From positions 62,001 through 126,000 of the forward strand of contig NZ_CAAHFG010000004.1 in assembly GCF_900890425.1 (NCBI RefSeq): a stretch of 64,000 nt of DNA, given 5' to 3'. Of this stretch, positions 36,468 through 46,366 are shown in pieces (position 1 is the stretch's first letter; each line of letters begins with the position of its first letter). The DNA is from Pontiella desulfatans. Its GTDB lineage: Bacteria; Verrucomicrobiota; Kiritimatiellia; Kiritimatiellales; Pontiellaceae. Under the pieces are notes generated by a model, which was not told where the DNA came from, ran no database searches, and saw nothing but the letters and a program-made list of their open reading frames with translations. A program made the translations under genes and the position numbers.

Positions 36468-36610
36468 CTAGTTCTGAATCAAGCGGGTTCTGATAAACGC
36501 CGCGTTGTTGCTGGTGCCGGCACTGCCGGAATAGACCGGCGTCCAACTTTGCAAGTCGGTGCTGGTTTCCACCAATATCTCAACATCACCATTGTTGTCA
36601 TCGGGTACCC
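36468..36610 (-). pseudogene. 3' remnant of a secreted-protein gene
   Basis: In the frame ending at TAG 36468 the DNA encodes LRWVPDDNNGDVEILVETST, then DLQSWTPVYSG, and ends NNAAFIRTRLIQN. This is the C-terminal beta domain carried by several secreted proteins in this window. Nothing upstream in frame continues it, and the neighbouring phage-like gene reads through it in another frame. It is a truncated 3' end at a recombination junction. Confidence 0.6.
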
Positions 36611-37195
36611 ATCGTAGCTGTCGAGTAACCTAGCCAATCCCTCTCGATTATTCCGTGTTAAGAAATCCGCCCCGAAAAAATGATCATCCTTAATCCTGCC
36701 CGTAGCCATGAGTGCGCCTCTAATTACGCATACGACCTGCGTGAGCAATTCAAAGTTGGATGCAATCTGGTGACCATATCCTGACTCCTGCTCTTCCCGG
36801 TCACTCGGTTGAGTATAACTCAGGATTTCCAGCTTGGCGTCATAAAGCTCTCGCACCGTTGCCAAGTGAATGAGCTGCAACTGGTGCTGTTGAATGAAAT
36901 CCTCCAGGTGCTCGTTAATATCCATGGCAAGTATGGTGAGCATGTATGTTTCCGTCGCATTTCCCCGATGAGCCCCGCTGTTCTTCCTGTCTCTTTGGCT
37001 CTTGTCGGCACCAATGGTCTGGGGGCGCCAAAAGTCGCAGCGCTGCATGTCGGAACATGAATAGGCATTCAGAAGGTATTCGTCCACTGAGCCGCAACAG
37101 GAAAAGCGGCCCGCGATCCAGGTAGCCCATTCCTTCGGTGTTTTTTTCTCCTCCAACTTGTGCTCGATCGATTTCATTTGCTTCTTCCTGATCAT
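36479..37195 (-). CDS. Unknown protein of the right-end module, C-terminus probably aberrant
   Basis: 238 aa. The start overlaps the stop of the upstream gene (ATGA). The first 205 residues look genuine: KKTPKEWATWIAGRFSCCGS, a Cys-containing middle part and helical segments (MDINEHLEDFIQQHQLQLIH). No family recognised. The last 35 or so residues (VGRRSIPAVPAPATTRRLSE) are read out of frame through a secreted-gene remnant, so the original C-terminus has been replaced. Confidence 0.55.
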   Translation of the reverse strand: MIRKKQMKSIEHKLEEKKTPKEWATWIAGRFSCCGSVDEYLLNAYSCSDMQRCDFWRPQTIGADKSQRDRKNSGAHRGNATETYMLTILAMDINEHLEDFIQQHQLQLIHLATVRELYDAKLEILSYTQPSDREEQESGYGHQIASNFELLTQVVCVIRGALMATGRIKDDHFFGADFLTRNNREGLARLLDSYDGYPMTTMVMLRYWWKPAPTCKVGRRSIPAVPAPATTRRLSEPA

Positions 37196-37569
37196 TGCAT
37201 ACCTGCCAGTTCTTCAAGTTGTTCCAATCGCTTCTCCAGATCATCGACAGACTTCAGCTTAAACACCATATCCAGAAGATCTCGGGCTGCCGCCCGACGA
37301 ACCGTCGGCTTATCCGACTCCAGCAAATCAATCAAGGTGTCCACCGCCTTCTGCATATGCGAAAGCAGGTTGCTCATCGCCGCGTCAGCCAGAGCCATCT
37401 GGCGGGAGCGGAGTTCATCACGGAATGGTTTCGATTCCTGGAGCCAGCGATAAATCTGCTTCGCCGACACCCGCGCCTCTTGCGCCGCCTGGGCAACACA
37501 GGAGTTGCTGATCAGGAAGGGCAGCACCCGCAACTGATTTTCACTCAAATCTGAGACATTTCTGGACAT
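37192..37569 (-). CDS. Helix-turn-helix protein, phage small-terminase-like
   Basis: About 125 aa from ATG 37569 after GAGGG. The N-terminal part (ENQLRVLPFLISN, then AQEARVSAKQIYRWLQE, then KPFRDELRSRQMALADAA) matches the helix-turn-helix pattern of phage/ICE-type small terminase-like DNA-binding proteins. The C-terminal half is a coiled coil (LKSVDDLEKRLEQLEELAG). DNA recognition is inferred. A packaging role is unproven because no large terminase is present. It overlaps the next gene by 4 bases. Confidence 0.6.
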   Translation of the reverse strand: MSRNVSDLSENQLRVLPFLISNSCVAQAAQEARVSAKQIYRWLQESKPFRDELRSRQMALADAAMSNLLSHMQKAVDTLIDLLESDKPTVRRAAARDLLDMVFKLKSVDDLEKRLEQLEELAGMQ

Positions 37570-37616
37570 TATTACCCTCGGCTCGACTTGCATGGTATCC
37601 GATTAAATACAATCTG

Positions 37617-38090
37617 TTATAACGCGCGACCAACGGGAGGCATTCGTGTTGCGGCTGCATTCTTATTGGCCCTGATTTTAGCCGCTATGGAGAGAAGTGT
37701 ATCTTGCTCAAATGCATAATGTTTATCCGCCCCAATGATGACCGGACAAGTCGCGGCCGCCTCAATCAACGCAATGTGGAGTATTGAAGATTCGGGACCA
37801 TCATTAAACACACCTCTCTCTTCTGGCATATGCTGCAAAACGAAGCCGTGAAGTACGATTATACGGGTTACTACCGACATTACATAAGTTTTATCATCAA
37901 ACCCGTATTCTCGAACGACAGATCCGCAAACAAGCACCATCATCCGGATACGGAATTCACTGTGCTCTGCCGGCGTCATATCATCCCAGTGCTTGGGAAG
38001 ACCCTTGTTTAAATCACCCCAAGCAATGCTGCTCATCCGGCGGAACTCGACAGGTTCAACTTCGATTTGAGTGTCTACAGATTCTTCCAT
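37617..38090 (-). CDS. Unknown element protein
   Basis: About 157 aa from ATG 38090, which follows GGAGA; ATG 38108 adds six residues. Segments such as HWDDMTPAEHSEFRIRMMVL and IALIEAAATCPVIIGADKHY look well structured. No motif recognised. It is part of the minus-strand right-end module, between the replication-type and helix-turn-helix genes. Confidence 0.55.
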   Translation of the reverse strand: MEESVDTQIEVEPVEFRRMSSIAWGDLNKGLPKHWDDMTPAEHSEFRIRMMVLVCGSVVREYGFDDKTYVMSVVTRIIVLHGFVLQHMPEERGVFNDGPESSILHIALIEAAATCPVIIGADKHYAFEQDTLLSIAAKIRANKNAAATRMPPVGRAL

Positions 38091-38109
38091 TATACTTTCT
38101 CCATTCATT

Positions 38110-39507
38110 TTAGTTCACGTCTTTCCATCCAGCTAGATCCGCCTCTAAATCCATCAGCTTTTCAAACAGCACCGAAGCATCGCAGTCGAACGGTTTCTGG
38201 TCATGCCGCTTCTGCTCCTGGATATCCTCCACAAACTCCACCAACACCCGCCGCACCTTATCGTCCGCCGCACTCGCGCCACCCGCCGCTATATTGATCC
38301 GGCCCAGCGCATACTTGAACAGGCTTTCCTGCCCGCCCTCCTCCTTGGCCGGGTTCGGCGGCTTGCCGTCCGGCGCAAGGTACAACATCCCGTCAATCAG
38401 GTCGCAATCGTGTACATGCACCGACCGGAACTCCACCAACTCATCCTTCGTACGCCGCGGGTGCGGATGCGTTCCATCCACCCAGCCCCGGTACACCTTA
38501 CCCGACAACGACCGGTCGAAACCGCCCAGGCGTTGGTTTCGCCGCGCACGTCTCTTTCCGCCCGGCGTCGGAACTACCGCCGGCAGCCCGGCTACCCCGC
38601 CGCCCGACTTTCTACCTGCATGGCTGCCCCTGCCTTGACCAACGGGAATGGGTGGAGAATCGGGGTCAACGTGCACCTTCGGCGGCTCGCCCCCCCCCTC
38701 TCCCGCCGATGCGGTTCCTAGCCCCGCGCTAGCGGGGTTAGGGGCATCGCCCCCTATAGGATCTATAGGGATTTCAGAGAAATCCTCTCCTGCTATAGGT
38801 TCTATATCTTCTGTAGGAAAAGTCTCCGGCGCAGCCGGAGCTTCCGTCTCCTGCTCTCCTGCCTCTCCCGAACGAGGGGGGGGGCGAGCCGCCGAAGGCG
38901 GCGAGGGAAGATACTCACCCGAAACCGAAAGAACCCCGTCCTCGATCAACAATACACCGCCAGCTTCCAACAGCTCCACGATGCGCGGCATTGTCCGCAC
39001 CGGACACTTCTTTAACTTTGCCCCGAGCCAATGGCACAGAGCATCCACCGTCCGGGGCTCCCCCGAACGCAAATACCAGCCAAGCAATTCTACCGATGCC
39101 GAAACGATCTCCTCGTCCGACCTCAGCGTCTTATCCTCGCTTGCACTGTTCTTCGACCGCTTCTTATCCGCCGCCCAATGCTTTAGATAAGGCCTACCCC
39201 GTTTATCGAACGACACTTCGTCGGCAGCCCGCAAGGCCGTCAGGTTCCGATCCACCGCAGCTATCCGCGACGGATTCATCCGCGCCAACCGACGCCGAAC
39301 CCAATCCTTGTCCGCCTTCTGTCCCGTATCCGTGTAGACACAGCCATCACCCTTCACGCCCGCAGCATTCCGTTTCACCAGCATCTCCAACCGCGCCAGG
39401 CACGCCAATGCTCCGTCATCCAGCATCGGCATCCCCGCCTCGATCTTCCGGCGTATCGGATCCAGCGCCCAGATCACATGGTTTAGTTTTAGTTTTTTAC
39501 TGCTCAC
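38110..39507 (-). CDS. Replication-initiator-like protein of the element
   Basis: 465 aa from GTG 39507. An N-terminal helical/winged-helix-like part (residues 1-215; VELLGWYLRSGEPRTVDALC, VRTMPRIVELLEAGGVLLIE) is joined by a Pro/Gly/Glu-rich linker (about 215-330) to a basic C-terminal domain (GGKRRARRNQRLGGFDRSLS onward). The two-domain layout, its place behind an excisionase-like gene, and repeats within the linker DNA recall initiators with an internal origin such as lambda O. This is inference, as no signature motif is present. Confidence 0.45.
   Translation of the reverse strand: MSSKKLKLNHVIWALDPIRRKIEAGMPMLDDGALACLARLEMLVKRNAAGVKGDGCVYTDTGQKADKDWVRRRLARMNPSRIAAVDRNLTALRAADEVSFDKRGRPYLKHWAADKKRSKNSASEDKTLRSDEEIVSASVELLGWYLRSGEPRTVDALCHWLGAKLKKCPVRTMPRIVELLEAGGVLLIEDGVLSVSGEYLPSPPSAARPPPRSGEAGEQETEAPAAPETFPTEDIEPIAGEDFSEIPIDPIGGDAPNPASAGLGTASAGEGGGEPPKVHVDPDSPPIPVGQGRGSHAGRKSGGGVAGLPAVVPTPGGKRRARRNQRLGGFDRSLSGKVYRGWVDGTHPHPRRTKDELVEFRSVHVHDCDLIDGMLYLAPDGKPPNPAKEEGGQESLFKYALGRINIAAGGASAADDKVRRVLVEFVEDIQEQKRHDQKPFDCDASVLFEKLMDLEADLAGWKDVN
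38717..38815. repeat. Palindrome and CTATAGG repeats inside the initiator-like gene
   Basis: A strong palindrome (CCCCGC-GCTA-GCGGGG, extended on both sides) is followed by three CTATAGG copies (38754-38760, 38763-38769, 38793-38799) and an inverted repeat GATTTC...GAAATC, in a locally AT-rich patch within GC-rich DNA. It resembles an iteron/origin block, but function is unproven. Confidence 0.4.
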
Positions 39508-39569
39508 CAAACATTCCTAATTATGTTCGCTCTTTATTATTGCTTTCGTACTCATCTGGGTTCCTAAAC

Positions 39570-39794
39570 TCAGATTTCCCCATTGAATACATCGCGAACA
39601 CTCCTTCCCGTGTATCTGACCGGATTGCTGAAGCCTGGATGCACCTTCAGGTAACCCTCGTACTGCAGCCGCTTCACCTGCTCATACCCAAGTTCAAGAA
39701 TCCGCATAACCGTCTTCCGATCACAAATAGGTGGTATCACCACCTGCTTGACTATCGCTTTCTCGGTCGATTCAATTGTTAAATTCCGAGCCAA
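39570..39794 (-). CDS. Excisionase-like small helix-turn-helix protein
   Basis: 74 aa from TTG 39794, preceded by GAGGTGA. The sequence MARNLTIEST then ICDRKTVMRILELGYEQVKR, LQYEGYLKVHPGF, SNPVRYTGRSVRDVF has the MerR-like/HTH_17 plan of excisionases: a short winged helix, then a wing strand with VRY. It is the first gene of the minus-strand module at the integrase-distal end. It would bias recombination to excision or repress the module promoter. Confidence 0.6.
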   Translation of the reverse strand: MARNLTIESTEKAIVKQVVIPPICDRKTVMRILELGYEQVKRLQYEGYLKVHPGFSNPVRYTGRSVRDVFNGEI

Positions 39795-40100
39795 AAATCA
39801 CCTCATTGGGACGCAACCTAGCACGCCCGCCGGGCTGCGCAAACACCCGCCCCCGTACTGTCGCCCCTGGATGGTTTCGCGATCGATTCAATTTCAAATT
39901 CCGGTCCATAATCACCTCAATTGGGGGGAACATAGCATCGTGGCGGCTCGGCTCAAACACCCGCCCCCGTACTGTCGCCCTGAGTGGTTTTGCGATCTGT
40001 TCAATTGTCAAATTCCGGGCCATAAATCGCCTCATTCGGGGAGCAACCTAGCACCGCCGCGGCCTGGTGGGAACACCCGCCCCCGTACTGTCGGAGAACT
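39780..40100 (-). repeat. Three tandem 115-bp leader repeats upstream of the excisionase-like gene
   Basis: Each unit holds a GAGGTGA-type ribosome site, a start codon and codons MARNL or MDRNL, then a conserved CGACAGTACGGGGGCGGGTG block (+ strand positions 39844-39863, 39958-39977, 40074-40093). The unit nearest the gene supplies its real start. The other two encode short frames with ATVRGRVF. It could be a reiterated operator or leader. Confidence 0.65.
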
Positions 40101-40846: not shown

Positions 40847-42253
40847 ATGAAGACCAAGATCAAACCGATAGTATCGTGGAGCATATGGGCTGGCGGCCTA
40901 TCGCTCGTGATGGGTATTGTTACCCGAAACCAACTGCTCGCAGGCTTCGAAGCCGATGGCACGGGAATGAGCTTTGTCATTGCCGCCTTCTTCGGAGCCG
41001 GCCTGCTTCTTTCTTTCCGTGCCGCGAAACAGCTGCATTCCGAATGGGGAGTGCTGGCAAAAATCAGCGAGTCCAATTCGATTCCGGAATCCAAGGGGAA
41101 CAAGGATCTCGCCTCGGTCTTCCAGCGGCTCCAGGAATATAAGGAAAAGGGCGAAACCGTTGATGTGTATACCGCCATCGACACCTACCACTCCAAACAC
41201 AACTCCCGCGTACGTGTGGTTACGATCATGGCAGGTCTGATCATTTCCATGGGATTGCTGGGCACGGTTGTGGGATTGATCATGTCGATCTCCGGACTGG
41301 GCAGCATGGTCGAGAACATCGGCCTATCGCGCACCACGATGATGGAAGCGCTGAAGGCCACCGTATCGGGCATGGGCACCGCCTTCTACACCACCTTCTT
41401 CGGCGCCATGGGCGGCCTGATCCTGCGCGCGGTTGCGGTATCCCAGCTCAACTCCCTTTCGGAACTATGCGCGGAAGCGGCTGAATATGCCGGCAGCCAC
41501 CTCGTGGCCAAGCTCGAAAGCAAGGAAGAGGAGCTCAACCAGCAGGTTTCGAAGGTTATCGACAGCTTCGGTGCCATGCAGAAGGAAATCGAATCCATTA
41601 CGGTCAAGCTGACCGAATCGTTCGAAGCCACCATGAAGAGCTTCGGGAACTCGCTGACCGAAGCGGGCAACCACGCCATGGATGCCACCAAGGAATGCAT
41701 CAACGGCATGACCGACCAGATGGCCGTGTTCGGCAGCGAAATCGGCAGCTCCTTCGGTACCTTCAACGAATCCATCGAGAAGGCCGGCGAAGATGTGCAC
41801 GAAGCCTTTGGCACGGTGAAAGCCTCGATTGAAAAATCGGGCGAAGAGATGCACGACTCGTTTGGTGGAATCAACGCAACCCTGGCGACGTGCGGCGAAA
41901 GCGTGACCGAAGCCTTCGGCGGAATCAATGCAACCCTCGGCACCTGCGGCGAGGGCGTAAGCGAAGCCTTCGAGAGCCTCAACAGCTCCGTCCAGCAGGC
42001 AGGCGACACGGTTGCCGGCTCCCTGGCCGACTTCAAACTTTCCGTCGATGGCACTAGCCAGGAACTGAAGGGCGCGGTTGGCGAGCTGCATGGCGCCATC
42101 AGCAAGGCCACCGGCGAGATGGTCACCATGGCCAAGGCGAAGCTCGACAGCGAGGCCGTGGAAATTGCCGGGCACCTCTCGACTGCGGCCAACTCGATCC
42201 AGCAGTTCATCAGCCAGAAGACGACTCACGAAGCAACCCAGAAGGTGGCGTAA
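40847..42253 (+). CDS. MotA/TolQ/ExbB-type channel with long cytoplasmic tail (ZorA-like)
   Basis: 468 aa. Predicted TM segments lie at about 10-28, 40-57, 125-150 and 168-195. The channel signature is LLGTVVGLIMSISGL and GMGTAFYTTFFGAMGGLI, as in MotA/ExbB/ZorA. After residue 200 the protein is a long helical tail with five exact-length 18-residue repeats (303-392; FGGINATLATCGESVTEA type). The stator-plus-tail plan is that of ZorA rather than classical ExbB. ATG follows CGGGAG at some distance. The stop overlaps the start of the partner gene (TAATG). It would form an ion-driven inner-membrane motor with its partner. Confidence 0.78.
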   Translation: MKTKIKPIVSWSIWAGGLSLVMGIVTRNQLLAGFEADGTGMSFVIAAFFGAGLLLSFRAAKQLHSEWGVLAKISESNSIPESKGNKDLASVFQRLQEYKEKGETVDVYTAIDTYHSKHNSRVRVVTIMAGLIISMGLLGTVVGLIMSISGLGSMVENIGLSRTTMMEALKATVSGMGTAFYTTFFGAMGGLILRAVAVSQLNSLSELCAEAAEYAGSHLVAKLESKEEELNQQVSKVIDSFGAMQKEIESITVKLTESFEATMKSFGNSLTEAGNHAMDATKECINGMTDQMAVFGSEIGSSFGTFNESIEKAGEDVHEAFGTVKASIEKSGEEMHDSFGGINATLATCGESVTEAFGGINATLGTCGEGVSEAFESLNSSVQQAGDTVAGSLADFKLSVDGTSQELKGAVGELHGAISKATGEMVTMAKAKLDSEAVEIAGHLSTAANSIQQFISQKTTHEATQKVA

Positions 42254-43470
42254 TGCGTGCGGCAACCCGTCATGAAGCGCCCTCGGATTCCGAGGGCATC
42301 TATGAGTCCTTCTCGGACATGGTTCTTTGCACGGTCATCGTGTTGATCACCCTCGTGGTGGTGCTTGCCCTGAATGTGGTGGAACAGCTCAACGTCTATA
42401 TCGAGCCGAACCACTTCAGCGGCGGGGCAACCCGCCCCTGGCTCTATGTCCAGGCCCAGAATGCGGACTATTCCAAGACGACGTCCGACCGCCTCGCGGT
42501 CGAGCGGGCCGTCTATGGGGGCCATCCGTTCGTGATGGTCAACCTGTTCAGCCCCTCGTCCGCCCATTCGGAAACGACCGTCAAGGACGGCCTCACCGTT
42601 TCGGCGAAGGAAGGGCAGTCGTTCCTCGGGCAGTGCGACCTCACGGCGTACAACTTCCTGCTGCTGGCGGCAGGCATCGAGCCCGGTTCGTTCCCGGTCG
42701 CCGGAAACCAGACCGCGCTCATGCTTCCGAAGTTTTCGCACAAGAGCATTTTGCTTGAGCCTGGAAAGGCCGACGGCTACGCCGCCACGCCCGACAACGA
42801 GCTGGCACTCAAGACGATGGCGATGGCCTGGCCGGTGTACGACCACCAGCTCTTCCCGCGCCGTGCGGCGAACGATTATTTGAACGCCCGTACCAAGATC
42901 TTCATCGAGGTGCTGGAGTCGGACGACGACGCACACCGCATCATGATCGGCCACAGCGTATTCACGTTGCCGCAGGACGTCGAGAACGGGCGCCTGGGTT
43001 GGCTGGCCGGCTTCTCGTCGGGTCTCACGGAGGTGGTCTATCTGGGCAAAGCCTGGAGCAGCCCCGCCGAGCACACCAACAAGCGCATCGACTTTTTCGA
43101 GAAGAGCGGATTCGCGGAAGCGGCAGAGGATTACCGCCGGTTCAGCTATCCGCAGGGCACCACTTCCGAGCAGGACAAATTGATGCGTCTGGCCACTACG
43201 GCCGGCAGCACGATGCCGGTCGAGCAGGAAGAGGAGTATGCCCGAGCGGCCGAAGCCCAGCGCAAGATCTCGGAGGCCATCGTCGATGGCTCCAGTGCCA
43301 AGGCCTATCTGCCGCCGTTGCTGGTTCATCGCGACGCCTGGAACGCCTATGCCGACTATTGCATCAAGACGGCAGTAGGCGGCACACCCCCGGAATGGCT
43401 GATGGGCGAGTTCCTCGAACCGCTCGGGTTCGACCAGGCCGTGGTTCGCGGACTTCGGCAGGATGGCTAG
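42253..43470 (+). CDS. MotB/ExbD/ZorB-type partner with novel C-terminal domain
   Basis: 405 aa. A short cytoplasmic N-terminus is followed by one TM helix (SFSDMVLCTVIVLITLVVVL, residues about 20-42). Its start carries an Asp placed like the ion-carrying Asp of MotB, ExbD and ZorB. The remaining 360 residues are outside. No OmpA-like peptidoglycan-binding motif is seen; segments such as PVYDHQLFPRRAANDYLNAR are not recognised. Translational coupling to the MotA-like gene supports a stator complex. No flagellar, TonB, or ZorC/D/E gene is adjacent. Confidence 0.68.
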   Translation: MRAATRHEAPSDSEGIYESFSDMVLCTVIVLITLVVVLALNVVEQLNVYIEPNHFSGGATRPWLYVQAQNADYSKTTSDRLAVERAVYGGHPFVMVNLFSPSSAHSETTVKDGLTVSAKEGQSFLGQCDLTAYNFLLLAAGIEPGSFPVAGNQTALMLPKFSHKSILLEPGKADGYAATPDNELALKTMAMAWPVYDHQLFPRRAANDYLNARTKIFIEVLESDDDAHRIMIGHSVFTLPQDVENGRLGWLAGFSSGLTEVVYLGKAWSSPAEHTNKRIDFFEKSGFAEAAEDYRRFSYPQGTTSEQDKLMRLATTAGSTMPVEQEEEYARAAEAQRKISEAIVDGSSAKAYLPPLLVHRDAWNAYADYCIKTAVGGTPPEWLMGEFLEPLGFDQAVVRGLRQDG

Positions 43471-43591: not shown

Positions 43592-43626
43592 ACCGCCGTA
43601 GCATCGGTTGCTCCGGCGTTTTTTCT
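43592..43626 (+). terminator. Terminator of the motor operon
   Basis: An extended stem with CGCCG...CGGCG is followed by six T. Another GC hairpin, CCCGC-TTGC-GCGGG, lies directly after the coding sequence. The opposite-strand htrA gene ends at the same place. Confidence 0.7.
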
Positions 43627-44780
43627 TAGTAGAGGGTAATGCCCGGAAACTCTTCAAGCTCCAGCTCAACCTCCTGCTTTTGTTCATTCAGCAGCAGAAG
43701 GAGTTTGATGCTTTTGCCCACCGACTTGTTGAAGATGATGCGCTTAACGTCGTATTCATCCTTCACCGGGATCCCGTCCACGGCAAACACGGCCGTCCCC
43801 GGCTGGAGGCTGGCCCGGGCCGCCGGGGTATCGGCAAAGACATCCGAGATGACCACGCTGGCGCCGTCGTAGATTCCCTTGTATTCCGTCCCGGTGGACT
43901 GGAAGAAACAACCGACCCACGGCCATTCATGCCGTTTTTTTTCGATGATGGAATTGGCGACACTGACCGCCAGGTTTACCGGGATGGCAAAGGCAATGCC
44001 CACCCCCTTCTTTTCGGCCTCGGTCTTGACGGCGGCATTCACGCCGATCAAACGGCCGTCCACATCGATCAAGGGGCCTCCGCTATTGCCTTCGTTGATT
44101 GCGGCATCGGTCTGGATGAAGTCTTCGTAGGGCAGGATTTGCACCCGCCGCCCTTTCTGGCTGATGTGCCCGACGGTCACCGAGCTTTGCAGGCTGAACG
44201 GCGAACCGATCGCAATGGCCACCTCCCCGACGCGCACCTTGTCGGAATCCCCGAATTCGACGGCCGGGCATAGCGGTTTTTTCGGTTCGAACTTCAAGAC
44301 AGCCAGATCGGTCGCCTTATCATGCCCGATTTCGTGCGCCGGCAGCTTGGTTCCATCGTTCAAGACAATTTCGATGAACTCCGCCTTGTCAATCACATGC
44401 CAGCTGGTCAAGACATAGCCGTTCTCATCGATAATGATTCCCGAGCCTTCGCCCATGAGCTCTTCCCACTCGACCCGCCCCCATCCGGGGATAATGGGCC
44501 GGACTACCTTCTGCTGCCTCCCCGTGCGGATGACCACCACGGAGCACATCACCTTTTCCACGGCATCGGCGATGGCTTCGCTGTAGGTGCGTGCGGGGTT
44601 GTATTCGTCCACCGGGCGCTGCCGCGGCGAAAAACGGCTTTCGGGCACATGCATGACCGGCTCATGCTGCTCGACCGGCTCACCGGGCACAACCTGCTGC
44701 CGGCGGACGGCGGAGACCAATGCACTCAAAACCATCACCCCGCAGAACCCAACCAACATCCATCGATTGCGACCCATCAT
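43626..44780 (-). CDS. htrA: HtrA/DegP-type serine protease with PDZ domain
   Basis: 384 aa with an N-terminal membrane or signal segment (WMLVGFCGVMVLSALVSAV). The trypsin-like domain (about 65-270) has the triad in LTSWHVIDKAEF (His), HDKATDLAVLKF (Asp) and INEGNSGGPLIDVDGR (Ser). A PDZ domain follows (about 285-375; DTPAARASLQPGTAVFAVDG). Envelope protein quality control is the usual role. Its start overlaps the xseB stop by 4 bases, so it is the last gene of the ymdB-xseA-xseB-htrA run. Confidence 0.92.
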   Translation of the reverse strand: MMGRNRWMLVGFCGVMVLSALVSAVRRQQVVPGEPVEQHEPVMHVPESRFSPRQRPVDEYNPARTYSEAIADAVEKVMCSVVVIRTGRQQKVVRPIIPGWGRVEWEELMGEGSGIIIDENGYVLTSWHVIDKAEFIEIVLNDGTKLPAHEIGHDKATDLAVLKFEPKKPLCPAVEFGDSDKVRVGEVAIAIGSPFSLQSSVTVGHISQKGRRVQILPYEDFIQTDAAINEGNSGGPLIDVDGRLIGVNAAVKTEAEKKGVGIAFAIPVNLAVSVANSIIEKKRHEWPWVGCFFQSTGTEYKGIYDGASVVISDVFADTPAARASLQPGTAVFAVDGIPVKDEYDVKRIIFNKSVGKSIKLLLLLNEQKQEVELELEEFPGITLY

Positions 44781-45034: not shown

Positions 45035-46366
45035 TTACTCTTTTCCTGTAACATTTGAAACCAATTTCCCGTCGGCGAGCAAGGTAACAAGGGGCTCGCC
45101 CACCTCGACCCCATCGGCGCTCCGCACCACCGTGCCATCGGGCTTGCGGGTCAGGCTGTAGCCGCGCCCCAGCACCGCCAACGGATTGAGCATGCGCAGC
45201 TGGCTCCCCAAACGCTGGAGCTTTTGGCGGTCGTGCTCGGCCTTGCGCTCCATCTGGTGCTGCATCACCATGCCCAGCTCATCCACCCGCTGATGCGCCT
45301 GCCGGACGCCGGATTGCAGCAGGTGCGCCATGCGGACATTCGCGTTCTCCAGCCGGCTCGCTTTTGCCTGCGCATCCAGCTTGAGCAAATCGGCCATGCG
45401 CGTTTCCATCGCCTGAACCGTCTGCCGGTATTGCTTCACCAAAGTCGCCGGCTCGCGGAACACATAGCTATGTTCCGCCCGGTTGAGCCGCAGCCGGAAA
45501 TCCTGGCTCATCGTCTTCAGGCTTTGCTTCAGGCGCCGGTCATAGAGCGAAAGCGTGTCTTCAAGATCGCCCTTCTCGCGAACCGCCAGCTCGGCGGCGG
45601 CCGAGGGCGTCGGCGCACGTACATCCGCCACAAAGTCGGCGATCGTGAAATCGATCTCGTGCCCCACGGCGGAAATGACCGGAATTCCGGATTCAAAGAT
45701 CGCCCGCGCGACAACCTCTTCATTGAACGCCCAAAGATCCTCGATCGATCCCCCGCCGCGTCCGACGATCATCACATCGATGTCGTTGCGGGTATTCAAA
45801 TAGCGGATGGCCTTGGCAATGCCCAGCTCCGCCCCGGCTCCCTGCACCTTCGCGGGAATCAGCAGAATGCCGATGTTCGGGAAGCGCCGCGTCAGCACAT
45901 TGATGATGTCGCGGATCGCCGCGCCCGTCGGCGAGGTGACCACCCCGATCTTCCTGGGCAGGATGGGCAACGGCCTCTTGCGGGCCTCGTCGAAAAGCCC
46001 TTCGTCCCGGAGCTTGGCCTTTAGTTTTTCAAACTGCTCCTGCAGGTTGCCCTTGCCCGCCTCCTCCATCTCGGAGGCAATCAGCTGATAGCGGCCGCTT
46101 GCTTCATACAGGCTCGGGCGCGCAAGCATCTGCACCTTCAGCCCATCCTTCGGCCTGAACCCCACAGCGGCATTGTCGCGGGAAAACATCGCGCACGAGA
46201 CCGCGGCGGCTTCATCCTTGAGCGTGAAATACCAATGCCCGCTCGAGTGGATCGTAACCCGCGAGAGCTCGCCCTCCACCCACACTTCGCCGATGCCCCC
46301 CTCCAGCACCATCCGCGCCTTGCGGTTGATGTCGGATACGGAATAAAGCTGACGCTTTGCGCCCAT
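45035..46366 (-). CDS. xseA: Exodeoxyribonuclease VII large subunit
   Basis: 443 aa, typical length. An N-terminal OB-fold (residues about 1-100; GEVWVEGELSRVTIHSSGHW) precedes the catalytic core with VTSPTGAAIRDIINVLTRRF, GRGGGSIEDLWAFNEE and SAVGHEIDFTIADFVADVRA. A coiled-coil region (about 270-400) and a C-terminal RGYSLTRKPDGTVV segment follow. It degrades single-stranded DNA with XseB. ATG overlaps the stop of ymdB (TAATG), so expression is coupled. Confidence 0.94.
   Translation of the reverse strand: MGAKRQLYSVSDINRKARMVLEGGIGEVWVEGELSRVTIHSSGHWYFTLKDEAAAVSCAMFSRDNAAVGFRPKDGLKVQMLARPSLYEASGRYQLIASEMEEAGKGNLQEQFEKLKAKLRDEGLFDEARKRPLPILPRKIGVVTSPTGAAIRDIINVLTRRFPNIGILLIPAKVQGAGAELGIAKAIRYLNTRNDIDVMIVGRGGGSIEDLWAFNEEVVARAIFESGIPVISAVGHEIDFTIADFVADVRAPTPSAAAELAVREKGDLEDTLSLYDRRLKQSLKTMSQDFRLRLNRAEHSYVFREPATLVKQYRQTVQAMETRMADLLKLDAQAKASRLENANVRMAHLLQSGVRQAHQRVDELGMVMQHQMERKAEHDRQKLQRLGSQLRMLNPLAVLGRGYSLTRKPDGTVVRSADGVEVGEPLVTLLADGKLVSNVTGKE

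Follow-up and report, generated by a model that had tools for sequence, protein, structure and literature searches.

The window, a stretch of 64,000 nucleotides from the 8.66 Mb genome of Pontiella desulfatans, carries on its forward strand two genes, here termed A and B, which overlap, as the original prediction had stated, and share one base (TAATG). Their features, the genes that follow them and the position of an unlinked lipoprotein gene, P, are collected in Table 1.

Table 1. Features of the A and B genes, their conserved neighbours in the window, and the unlinked gene P.
Feature	Coordinates	Strand	Evidence
Gene A, 468-aa channel subunit of the MotA/TolQ/ExbB family with a long cytoplasmic tail	40847..42253	+	Start ATG; MotA_ExbB, hhalign and motifs
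Predicted transmembrane (TM) helices, four in A: residues 8-26, 39-57, 127-145, ~176-198	40868..41440	+	Hydropathy; positions kept among orthologues
Tail of A, residues 302-427: 18-residue unit in seven tandem copies, spaced 7+11 (heptad plus hendecad)	41750..42127	+	Autocorrelation
54-bp direct tandem duplication within the tail repeats of A	41867..41972	+	Tandem Repeats Finder score 133, 84% matches
Gene B, 405-aa axle subunit with one TM helix and a large periplasmic domain	42253..43470	+	Start ATG; 29-member alignment; AF2
Asp22 codon, start of B TM helix, presumed ion-binding residue	42316..42318	+	Invariant in 29/29 homologues
B residues 46-272, alpha/beta periplasmic lobe without confident fold match	42388..43068	+	AF2 domain model
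C-terminal lobe of B (residues 273-405), mostly helices, last element a strand	43069..43467	+	AF2 secondary structure
Intrinsic-terminator-like hairpin and T run, 3' of B, ahead of the convergent htrA-like gene	43594..43624	+	RNA fold -14.4 kcal/mol, z -3.2
Conserved convergent neighbour, coding for a PDZ-containing trypsin-like protease (HtrA/DegP type)	43626..44780	-	Trypsin_2 2.7e-30, PDZ_2 1.3e-7 (Pfam); synteny
xseA (exonuclease VII large subunit), conserved neighbour	45035..46366	-	Pfam 1.1e-106; synteny
P, PEGA-repeat lipoprotein, unlinked to the window pair	G000:C3:1213700-1215040		PF08308 4.7e-35, five stretches

The assignment of A to the channel subunits is carried by several lines of evidence. 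The Pfam domain MotA_ExbB is matched over residues 108-185 (6.7e-9), a profile of 18 A sequences aligns in hhalign with ExbB/TolQ proteins from P. desulfatans itself (E 8e-7 (8.4e-7)), and the motifs GLLGT..GLI and T..GMGTAFYTT..G are invariant in the 18-sequence alignment. The closest solved structure spanning the channel region is 8VVN (E 1.3e-7 over residues 97-385), a type I ZorA (PMC11890865). The ZorA profiles of PADLOC are matched weakly (down to 1.5e-8), and those of NCBIfam reach at most 28 bits against cut-offs of 100-500, which are not attained. Matches of A to apolipoproteins, syntaxin and designed bundles were set aside as reflecting coiled-coil composition.

Downstream of the fourth TM helix are approximately 265 residues with an 18-residue periodicity, in keeping with the helical tail originally ascribed to this MotA/ExbB-type channel. 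At a lag of 18 the tail has an autocorrelation of 0.80, whereas 300 shuffled versions never exceed -0.09, and differences in tail length are exact multiples of 18 in nine of ten type I A orthologues. As the hydrophobic spacing is that of a heptad plus a hendecad, the sequence suggests a straight helical rod, the length of which would evolve through duplication of the repeat unit.

Weak homologues of A elsewhere in the phylum were excluded as members because some are ExbB/TolQ-like proteins of the usual sort and the others are a different kind of tailed MotA protein, encoded ahead of two small ExbD-like genes. Other families of the Kiritimatiellae (L056, L066, L067) have a distinct tailed MotA/ExbB protein of approximately 500 aa, followed at L056 and L067 by two small ExbD-like single-TM proteins, which together constitute another uncharacterised motor. 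The P. desulfatans genome itself (contigs C1-C5) contains 10 further MotA/ExbB-family and 12 ExbD-family matches, several of them arranged in rows of one ExbB and two ExbDs, and the bacterium is described as non-motile.

The second gene, B, encodes a protein with a single TM segment (residues ~24-42 by hydropathy), and the aspartate that had been picked out in it, Asp22, is unchanged in all 29 homologues; its counterpart in ZorB is D24/D21 (PMC11890865). The outer part of B (residues 46-405, approximately 360 aa) has no recurring Pfam or NCBIfam match in B and 28 homologues, and the OmpA domain of Pfam is absent from all of them, which bears out the earlier reading of this region. When B was compared, alone and as a profile, with Pfam, NCBIfam, PADLOC and all PDB sequences, no family was matched; more specifically, the PADLOC ZorB profile does not match B, and neither GldM nor ExbD of Pfam matches B or its relatives, with hhalign comparisons to 11 ExbDs of the same genome giving E-values of 0.2-0.29. 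Scattered Pfam and NCBIfam matches of single members, for example to phosphatidylserine decarboxylase (6.4e-4), were dropped as they do not recur in the B family, and a match to the PADLOC profile PDC-M18B (E 0.038) spans the TM segment alone. In the AF2 model of B (pLDDT 85.5, pTM 0.82), the TM helix is followed by an alpha/beta lobe and then by a lobe made mainly of helices. A fold search with the whole protein and with residues 46-272 returned nothing at E < 0.001, and the only match of the alpha/beta lobe with Z of at least 2, to TolR (5by4; Z 2.3, 75 aligned residues, rmsd 3.8), is too weak to claim. Comparison with known families places A with ExbB/TolQ and yields no clear assignment of B to the TolR, ExbD or GldM families.

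The genomic position of the pair is conserved. In related genomes with flanking sequence rsmB usually comes first, followed by A and B and then by the convergent htrA-like gene and xseA, often with ymdB nearby; the HtrA-like protease and xseA are markers of this fixed site, and neither is claimed as a member of the machine. In P. desulfatans rsmB lies 780 kb away from the pair, as opposed to its usual adjacency in relatives, and the 'island edge' that had been placed exactly here is therefore a rearrangement private to this genome, not a general feature of the locus. Three direct repeats of approximately 115 bp are found just 5' of A at the rearrangement junction (window 39759-40096); they were checked as a possible driver of the rearrangement and have no other copy in the genome. 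Also beside the junction, on the reverse strand (window 36479-39510), are four small genes without clear families, one having a weak match to a transposase helix-turn-helix, and this block is probably what remains of a mobile element. On the 3' side of B, a consensus terminator scan gave finds at chance level with no excess; the terminator proposed there is nevertheless reasonable given the stability of the hairpin and its T run (Table 1). A separate observation concerns XseA, which at L079:10015-12054 (reverse strand), and also in the Pontiellaceae genomes G012, G006 and G002, has an in-frame insertion of approximately 230 aa near residue 193; in L079 it contains a Y1 transposase (IS200/RAYT-like) domain (PF01797, 1.2e-5), and the XseA of the window has no such insertion.

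The identities of A and B correlate with each other (r 0.88), and the divergence of B tracks that of ymdB (0.87), xseA (0.72) and rsmB (0.70), as would be expected under vertical inheritance. Type I AB is intact in 17 of the 28 genomes of the genus, and, of 346 genomes from the class, 23 contain B, these belonging to two genera. Among GTDB genomes B is found at 30 loci, all titled Kiritimatiellales, Pontiella or Verrucomicrobia, the nearest named relative with B being Pontiella sulfatireligans (77%), and no B homologues were found in phage, plasmid and IMG/VR collections. The suggested association with defence and with an island is unsupported, because the pair keeps its site across relatives and diverges in step with the housekeeping genes around it.

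A paralogous pair, A2-B2, is found in the same genome (C4:741179-743999), with 28% and 43% identity to A and B, respectively. We refer to the window pair, with P unlinked, as type I and to the A2-B2-P2 operon as type II. A gene for a PEGA lipoprotein follows the type II pair at all seven loci where both genes were called, and at two further loci by direct reading; the protein, P2, has PEGA repeats (2e-18, Pfam) and a signal ending in GTFGC. As the third gene of type II is a PEGA lipoprotein, an equivalent was sought for type I, and P, with the lipobox MAISGC read from its sequence, is such a protein. P occupies a conserved site adjoining phoH and, in many genomes, also nifJ. Within the genus AB and P are unlinked; in the outgroup G039 a type-I-like AB directly adjoins a PEGA lipoprotein gene, the product of which is the sister of P in the tree (support 100/99, both branches being long).

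Full-length P occurs in exactly the 17 congeners that have intact type I B, and the two states agree in all genomes compared; the presence of type II, which serves as a control, does not track that of type I. A clean empty AB site, with rsmB directly beside htrA, is seen in G004, G014, G023 and G026. In three of these (G004, G023 and G026) all that is left of P, between phoH and nifJ, is its final 21-26 codons, and at the P site of G014 there is no remnant. The surviving codons end in LLNTPSSF (L213:2704-2781, L214:1142-1204, L229:2828-2902), and this retained 3' stretch may also act in regulation or as a terminator. In G025 B has in-frame stops and a break, P is decayed and the type II B gene is open. 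On a marker tree of XseA, PhoH and RsmB, AB and P agree in every change, at least three of these being forced by supported branches and five occurring on the best tree; the sign test on these events gives p 0.25, the three to five independent events being too few for significance. The absence of AB is confirmed by synteny in only four genomes, and several of the genomes are incomplete MAGs. Linkage in the paralogue and the outgroup, together with shared loss, implies a partnership, and we consider P a likely functional partner of A and B. The description of the pair as 'stand-alone' is not supported, and 'isolated' is incorrect in a functional sense, given that the paralogous operon includes a PEGA lipoprotein gene and that the unlinked P shares presence, absence and remnants with AB.

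A and B very probably form an ion motor. By analogy with the family, five copies of A would make up the channel ring in the inner membrane and two B helices its axle, with Asp22 of B presumably carrying the ion and either H+ or Na+ powering the motor. The repeat tail of A may extend into the cytoplasm as a rod of variable length, as in ZorA, where it could stiffen the ring, or sense or signal to a cytoplasmic partner. The two-lobed periplasmic domain of B would relay rotation or a conformational change across the periplasm to P, a predicted lipoprotein that is probably anchored in the outer membrane. The most likely job of such a system would be to apply force, much as Tol-Pal does, in maintaining or remodelling the outer membrane and surface layer of these non-motile cocci; Pontiella is Gram-negative and non-motile (PMC7356697). 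We lean towards this combined reading, in which a trans-envelope 5:2 motor of A and B acts on the lipoprotein P in an envelope role. What had been proposed as an ion-driven two-gene machine accordingly survives as a motor pair with an axle of no known family, the 'two-gene' part giving way to an implied third component, and between envelope work and surface transport, both of which had been raised, envelope work is favoured.

Three other explanations were weighed against this reading. An unlikely one is a motor of the GldLM type, serving surface transport or the secretion of surface polymers or proteins with P as a GldK-like lipoprotein. The two share the logic of an inner-membrane motor, a long periplasmic axle with a large domain and an outer-membrane lipoprotein (the last inferred here), and Pontiella makes sulfated exopolymers (PMC7356697); however, B lacks a GldM sequence match, the organism is described as non-motile, and neither a secretion channel gene nor type 9 genes were recognised beside any locus. 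It is decidedly improbable that AB is an independent ion-leak or sensor unit and that the pattern shared with P reflects general genome streamlining, an idea consistent with the lack of linkage to P in the genus and with the small number of independent losses, but at odds with the linkage of a P-type lipoprotein gene to AB in the outgroup and to A2-B2 in the paralogous operon, the different pattern of type II, and the unbroken agreement between full-length P and intact B. Slightly less probable still is a Zorya-like anti-phage system, cut down to an AB sensor or with its effectors encoded elsewhere: the ZorA structure is the best relative of the channel region, the weak PADLOC matches and the long helical tail of A recall ZorA (PMC11890865), and patchy loss inside a genus is also typical of defence genes, but membership of AB in Zorya is not supported, since B has neither a ZorB profile match nor an OmpA domain and, as originally noted for this locus, ZorC, ZorD and ZorE are beside no locus (the neighbours being rsmB, htrA, xseA, ymdB or lipoprotein genes), and the unmet NCBIfam cut-offs, the fixed housekeeping site with its co-divergence, the lack of B homologues in phages, plasmids and IMG/VR, and the tie to a lipoprotein all count against it.

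The envelope motor that we favour is related to several known systems without coinciding with any of them. With ZorAB (8VVN, 8VVI) it shares a ring subunit of the MotA/ExbB type, extended at its C-terminus by a long helical tail, and a single-TM partner with an Asp at approximately position 21-24, and it differs in having no OmpA-like peptidoglycan-binding domain in B, no neighbouring ZorC/D/E, a chromosomal housekeeping site and an inferred lipoprotein partner. A is homologous to ExbB/TolQ, and, as in TolQR-Pal and ExbBD-TonB, force is proposed here to be passed to an outer-membrane component, which in Tol-Pal is also a lipoprotein. Unlike in those systems, A is predicted to cross the membrane four times and carries a long tail, B is approximately three times the size of ExbD and has no ExbD profile match, and P is built of PEGA repeats rather than being of the Pal/OmpA type. 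The flagellar stator MotAB similarly combines a four-TM A subunit with a single-TM, Asp-bearing B subunit, whereas the OmpA-type anchor is absent from the B protein described here, in an organism described as non-motile. The generic ion transporters surveyed by Puente-Lelievre et al. in 2025 (PMC12505986) are non-flagellar and likewise have an A protein with a C-terminal extension and a B protein with a large non-OmpA periplasmic domain, but the survey defines a loose class, into which AB can be placed, without function or partner.

Literature text searches found no paper on a system of PEGA proteins with ExbB/TolQ/ExbD, the AB family with a PEGA lipoprotein was not met in the literature searched, and no function for PEGA repeats was found there. 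The chances seem evenly balanced that AB and a PEGA outer-membrane lipoprotein make up a new kind of trans-envelope rotary machine, with an unclassified two-lobed axle and two paralogous versions, limited, as searched, to the Pontiellaceae and a close relative. One caution that follows is that the third part of an apparently 'stand-alone' AB pair may sit elsewhere in the genome. Among 5:2 motors outside the flagellum, those whose large periplasmic domains fit no class are known to be diverse, but a partner or a job has been assigned to few of them. Comparative genomics here gives two paralogous motors a candidate partner in the PEGA lipoprotein, which yields a proposed three-part envelope machine that can be tested and suggests a possible role for PEGA repeats.
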